Assembly (NCBI GenBank): GCA_018676385.1 | Contig: JABHEX010000132.1 | Coordinates: 1-32,103 of the forward strand | Source: Akkermansiaceae bacterium | GTDB taxonomy: Bacteria > Verrucomicrobiota > Verrucomicrobiia > Verrucomicrobiales > Akkermansiaceae | Length of the DNA stretch: 32,103 bases | Reading direction: 5' to 3' | In this document: in pieces, positions 31,293-31,318 of the stretch | Numbering within the stretch: the first letter of the stretch is position 1 | Layout: each line of letters opens with the position of its first letter | The notes under the pieces: model-generated | Told to the model about the DNA's origin: nothing | Seen by the model: only the letters and a program-made list of their open reading frames with translations | The model's database searches: none | Translations under genes and position numbers: made by a program

Positions 31293-31318
31293 GTAGGGCG
31301 GATTGGCCTCAATCCGCC
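31293..31318 (+). repeat. REP-like element: GTAG tetranucleotide plus perfect hairpin
   Basis: GTAG (31293-31296) immediately followed by GGCGGATTG-GCCT-CAATCCGCC (9-bp perfect stem), between atpG and atpD. Confidence 0.6.

Follow-up and report, generated by a model that had tools for sequence, protein, structure and literature searches.

The best characterised REPIN/RAYT cases come from Proteobacteria. The system was described by Nunvar et al. (2010, PMC2817692), from whose work REPs that abut rayt stop codons are known, and by Bertels and Rainey (2011, PMC3116915). The GTAG REP super-family of Di Nocera et al. (2013, PMC3733652) has 24 published families and includes Opitutus terrae, a member of the Verrucomicrobiota, a phylum that the RepRanger paper (PMC12306157) does not mention. 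We analysed a 32,103-nt stretch of DNA (hereafter the window) in which a sequence-only reading had noticed a GTAG-preceded palindrome between two ATP synthase genes and likened it to the RAYT-mobilised REP elements of enterobacteria. The assignment to GTAG-type REPs was upheld, with the host belonging to the Akkermansiaceae (Verrucomicrobiota) instead of the enterobacteria; the element is a GTAG REP whose likely mobiliser, of a known kind, is found in relatives, and it is a probable orphan in its own genome.

A GTAG hairpin behind atpG

Read directly from the letters, the element runs GGAGTAATCCCTG-GTAG-GGCGGATTG-GCCT-CAATCCGCC-GCTTGCC in 5′ to 3′ order, and all 9 positions of its arms pair to form a perfect 9-bp stem with GTAG directly abutting, so that the tag, palindrome and loop were exactly as the sequence-only reading had given them. 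Its placement between atpG and atpD was equally borne out (Table 1), with 6 nt between the atpG stop and the tag and 60 nt between the 3′ end of the hairpin and the atpD start. The base just before the tag (31292) is a G, as in 68 of the 69 collected copies, and the 3′ part of the spacer, CAAACCAACCACCATNCCGACNT, is common to relatives that lack this REP. We found no further GTAG hairpin in the window, no match to the element in a phage collection and no relevant match in Rfam. At 24482-24514 of the window lies a 14-bp hairpin with one mismatch, AAAACCTGAACCAC-actaa-GCGGTTCAGGTTTT, possibly a terminator.

Table 1. Coordinates of the features in the window and of the transposase loci in related genomes
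Feature	Location	Strand	Remarks
GTAG-type REP element, singlet copy	31293..31318	+	sequence and matches elsewhere
GTAG tag	31293..31296	+	
5′ stem arm, GGCGGATTG	31297..31305	+	
Loop GCCT	31306..31309	+	majority loop, 61/70 collected copies
3′ stem arm, CAATCCGCC	31310..31318	+	
atpG-atpD spacer housing the REP	31287..31378	+	92 nt
atpG (ATP synthase gamma), upstream neighbour	30390..31286	+	atp gene order and homologues
atpD (ATP synthase beta), downstream neighbour	31379..32103	+	cut by window end
RAYT gene	G097:C131, L168:1766-2209		
RAYT gene	G012:C3, L217:1692-2135		
RAYT gene	G052:C4, L218:2238-2681	-	
RAYT region	G110:C117, L219:1328-2115		
Second-family Y1 transposase locus	G052:C2:330647-333871 (L126)		248-aa open frame
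Second-family Y1 transposase locus	G012:C10:54386-57628 (L127)		221-aa open frame

As RNA, a 54-nt stretch with the hairpin is predicted to fold at -21.8 kcal/mol (z = -3.4), and none of 200 shuffles folded as well. A perfect, G+C-rich hairpin right after a stop codon could also be taken for an atp-specific signal that terminates or attenuates transcription, but we consider this highly improbable: intrinsic terminators combine such a hairpin with a following T-run, whereas here no T-run follows and a terminator scan of the + strand made no call at the hairpin; moreover, identical hairpins occur elsewhere in the same genome and in relatives, and stopping at this point would cut off atpD.

The REP family in the genus

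A pattern search of 145 Akkermansiaceae genomes, accompanied by a reversed-pattern control, showed a concentration of matches in the genus of the host. Apart from the host genome itself, we found 50 matches in G052, 26 in G012, 18 in G110, 10 in G097, 1 in G068 and none in the other genus members, figures that are match counts instead of copy counts because the arms of some hairpins also match on the other strand; the reversed pattern gave no match in any of these genomes or in the host genome (G000). The family core is GGTAGGG-nnn-ATTG-GCCT-CAAT-n′n′n′-CC, and the collected copies carry CGG, AGG, CTG, CAG and ATG stem types, each with its matching complement. Among 24 distinct sequences, 97.7% of stem cells were paired, double-changed cells numbered 19 versus 3.9 in shuffles, the covariation score was 0.292 versus 0.077, and pairing fell to 19-53% in slid registers. 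The stem is kept as a pairing structure, with compensatory variants.

Although ORFs of at least 130 aa take up 82% of the loci, 60 of 69 copies lay outside them. Uni-directional genes flanked 28 copies, convergent ones 25 and divergent ones 2, all of these placement figures being approximate since ORF calling was mechanical. Inverted REP pairs or arrays occur on contig C284 of the host genome (one pair), on G097:C131 (pairs) and in G012 (arrays). The family accordingly shows what is expected of GTAG REPs, namely a GTAG beside a short palindrome that is repeated and mainly extragenic, although its copy number in the host genome is low. The element is short, which might favour a chance palindrome beside a chance GTAG, but a composition model predicts only about 0.001 cases of GTAG with a perfect 9-bp stem and a 4-nt loop per window (0.09 per 2.8 Mb), exact copies are present in five congeners, and the stems vary in a compensatory manner; the copies in relatives already rule out coincidence, whose remaining probability is negligible.

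The host genome is a metagenome-assembled genome (MAG) that comprises 391 contigs, totals 2.80 Mb and is 87.4% complete; we screened it with pattern, protein and profile queries. It holds three full-length matches: the atp copy and two on C284, at 174 (+) and 331 (-), that form an inverted REP pair of about 160 bp (C284:174-331), or REPIN, with one member tagged CTAG. Matches to the fragment GTAGGGnnnATTGGCCTC were confined to the same three places. The sequence-only reading had proposed a REP family in this genome and had named a single-copy element as grounds for rejecting it; the element is in fact multi-copy, yet with three matches and no detected RAYT the family looks like a relic here. 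Contig C284 starts inside an apparent, partial REP array; given this and the incomplete, fragmented assembly, the copy number and the absence of a RAYT are to be read as lower bounds, and short-read assembly may undercount the family.

A cognate RAYT in relatives

Reading the ORF between two REPs on G097:C131, we found a 147-aa protein with REP pairs on either side and the motifs MPDHLHAL and YILQNPVRAEL. It matched the REP_Tyr_transpos profile NF047646 (E = 2.6e-21) at 76 bits, just below the 80-bit cut-off. Its alignment with TnpArep (PDB 4er8; E = 2.3e-5) covers about 120 aa, including the HxH and tyrosine regions. RAYTs of 147-153 aa and HUH/tyrosine type are present in four relatives. Those of G012, G052 and G110 are 80%, 66% and 41% identical to that of G097, and all four proteins keep the HxH motif and the tyrosine preceding NPVRA without change. 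In G097, G012 and G052 the gene is bracketed by the same kind of REP as the atp copy, and the adjacent REP (a partial one in G097) supplies the TAG at which the gene stops, following a conserved final tryptophan (TGG-TAG). The G110 gene is enclosed by GTAGGG palindromes whose stems (TCGCGTA, ACGTGTG) are unrelated, which suggests that RAYT and REP changed jointly. A C-terminal RAYT fragment at L220 has the same TGG-TAG ending.

All four genomes with 10 or more matches have a RAYT, against none of the ten with three or fewer (Fisher p = 0.001); this test of 14 genomes, the host genome among the ten, ignores phylogeny and uses a 10-match threshold set post hoc. The sequence-only reading had called for a search for an intact RAYT, and the outcome was divided: cognate RAYTs exist in relatives, but neither protein nor profile search found one in the host genome (87% complete). 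The C284 REPIN aligns over its whole length (C284:170-340) with both REPINs that bracket the G097 RAYT, and the host genome therefore shares that mobile unit.

We discarded PF01797 as a RAYT probe: its hits had no REP of the window type within about 1.5 kb at the loci checked, and the cognate RAYT itself scores 17.2 bits, under the cut-off of 23. Its two matches in the host genome were rejected as mobilisers, C266 being an ordinary IS200/IS605 transposase (129 bits) and C203 being bracketed by the unrelated long inverted repeat CCCAAGGTAGCGCGTGGGCGCGCAACCTTGGG. This C203 unit (L009:1732-2444) consists of a 173-aa Y1 transposase-like ORF between inverted copies of the 32-bp palindrome CCCAAGGTAGCGCGTGGGCGCGCAACCTTGGG, with outer-to-inner CCCAACGGGGTTGCGTC arms also in its flanks, and resembles the tyrosine transposases with TIR flanks (TIRYT) described in PMC3733652.

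The atpG-atpD spacer in relatives

Spacers were compared among the 80 best atpG relatives, which are Verrucomicrobiota, mostly Akkermansiaceae or Verrucomicrobiales, except for one record titled 'Bacterium', and among 11 genus members with a readable spacer. Most have no GTAG hairpin between atpG and atpD. This comparison, which the sequence-only reading had recommended, marks the REP as an insertion, and a conserved atp-specific hairpin, its other stated ground for rejection, was not what we saw. The atp insertion is lineage-specific and polymorphic.

Several spacers nonetheless hold something at the same place. At almost the same distance from the atpG stop, G110 carries GTAG-GACAGCTT-TGT-AAGCTGTC, an element of a different REP family, and the nearest record, MAG_Ve_Sed_07 (L037; atpG 96% identical), has the same spacer sequence as G110. 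For this second family (GTAG-GACAG/GACAA stems) we counted 109 matches in G052 against 25 in G110. Its copies enclose a longer Y1 transposase gene in G052, as those of a GACAAG variant do in G012. In the G035 spacer (L201, ~2384-2430), atpG appears to take its stop from the TAG of an imperfect GTAG palindrome that shares its tail, CAACCCAAGGAAC, with the G110 element; the fold of this palindrome was not better than shuffles. In G012, CAATCCGCC is retained at the matching position, perhaps as a decayed REP half, and G104 (L200) has an unrelated hairpin without GTAG, CGGCTC-CCCA-GAGCCG, whose fold is strong (z = -4.5).

Occupation of the place behind atpG seems to have happened on more than one occasion, but the roughly three cases were noticed post hoc and may be coincidence. 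We regard it as unlikely, if worth entertaining, that the spacer repeatedly receives GTAG hairpins or is a seat favoured by selection, with REPs of different families and RAYTs coming independently to lie no more than a few nucleotides from the atpG stop in related species; if so, it would point to a target preference of RAYTs or to selective retention of a hairpin that separates gamma from beta.

The sequence-only reading had suggested that the element may alter mRNA stability or the ratio of gamma to beta, and such an effect on atp expression is conceivable. A co-opted REP would form an mRNA hairpin that blocks 3′-to-5′ exonucleases after processing and would thereby fix how much product the upstream genes (gamma and before) yield relative to the downstream ones (beta, epsilon). 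The strong predicted RNA hairpin lies in sense orientation inside the operon, E. coli REPs reportedly stabilise RNA (literature summarised in PMC8049555), and G110 and G104 have hairpins of different origin at the same place. Most relatives, however, lack a hairpin in this spacer, and the atp operon therefore works without one; REPs of the family also stand behind many genes, as expected without a specific role. We judge co-option to be rather improbable.

Origin of the atp copy

The atp copy is very probably a singlet of a GTAG REP family that was spread by a RAYT since lost or left unassembled, and hence probably an immobile remnant. For this reading speak the multiple copies, the compensatory stems, the host's own REPIN, the RAYT genes enclosed by REPs in relatives, the co-occurrence of RAYT with REP abundance, and the empty sites in relatives. 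The cognate RAYT would have spread the family by acting on the ~160-bp inverted pairs through single-strand transposition, as published E. coli RAYT biochemistry would lead one to expect. One copy would then have landed just past the atpG stop in this lineage, where it could be tolerated because it sits in an untranslated spacer, presumably at no cost or benefit to the atp locus, and the RAYT would later have disappeared from the lineage or be missing from the assembly. The copy presumably arrived within a REPIN; singlet REPs have been argued to be REPIN remnants (PMC3116915), and we take it as one.

Against this reading stand the mere three full-length matches left in the host genome, far below typical REP families, the lack of a REP partner near the atp copy, and the perfect stem, which fits slightly uneasily with long decay. 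The family might instead still be active in the host species, with a RAYT and many REPs in the unassembled part of the genome. An assembly that is 87% complete in 391 contigs, the REP-like array at the start of C284, and the intact atp copy and one intact C284 arm pair would agree with this. It is nevertheless a poor prospect in our estimate, because the GTAGGGnnnATTGGCCTC fragments are limited to the three known places, because protein and profile searches recovered no RAYT from the host genome, and because in G110 and G097, equally fragmented and less complete, RAYT and REPs are both seen.

Comparison with known systems

The genus offers a natural series of genomes with a RAYT and many REPs, with no RAYT and few REPs, and with neither, so that REP decay after transposase loss could be traced between close relatives outside Proteobacteria. 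RAYT sequence and REP stem can be compared across congeners, which makes recognition testable: the set spans RAYTs 80, 66 and 41% identical to that of G097 and stems of CGG, CAG and CTG types, unrelated in G110. In addition, one place in the atpG-atpD spacer is taken by different REP families in related species.

With TnpA-REP (PDB 4er8), the G097 RAYT, known here from its sequence, shares aligned HxH and tyrosine regions, whereas the REP stem and loop differ. As in REPIN/RAYT systems, a single-gene HUH tyrosine transposase is bracketed by its own REPs with a REP at the rayt stop, inverted pairs are the probable mobile unit and singlets are probable remnants; unlike them, the host genome appears to be without a RAYT. 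We found the core GTAGGGnnnATTG-GCCT-CAATnnnCC in one Akkermansiaceae genus and liken the family to the published GTAG REPs by general features. These shared features are a GTAG directly beside a short-looped stem of 6-13 bp, sub-families with compensatory changes, an occurrence as singles, pairs and arrays, mostly in spacers that are uni-directional or convergent and lie close to the 3′ ends of genes, and a TAG that serves as the stop codon of neighbouring ORFs (PMC3733652).
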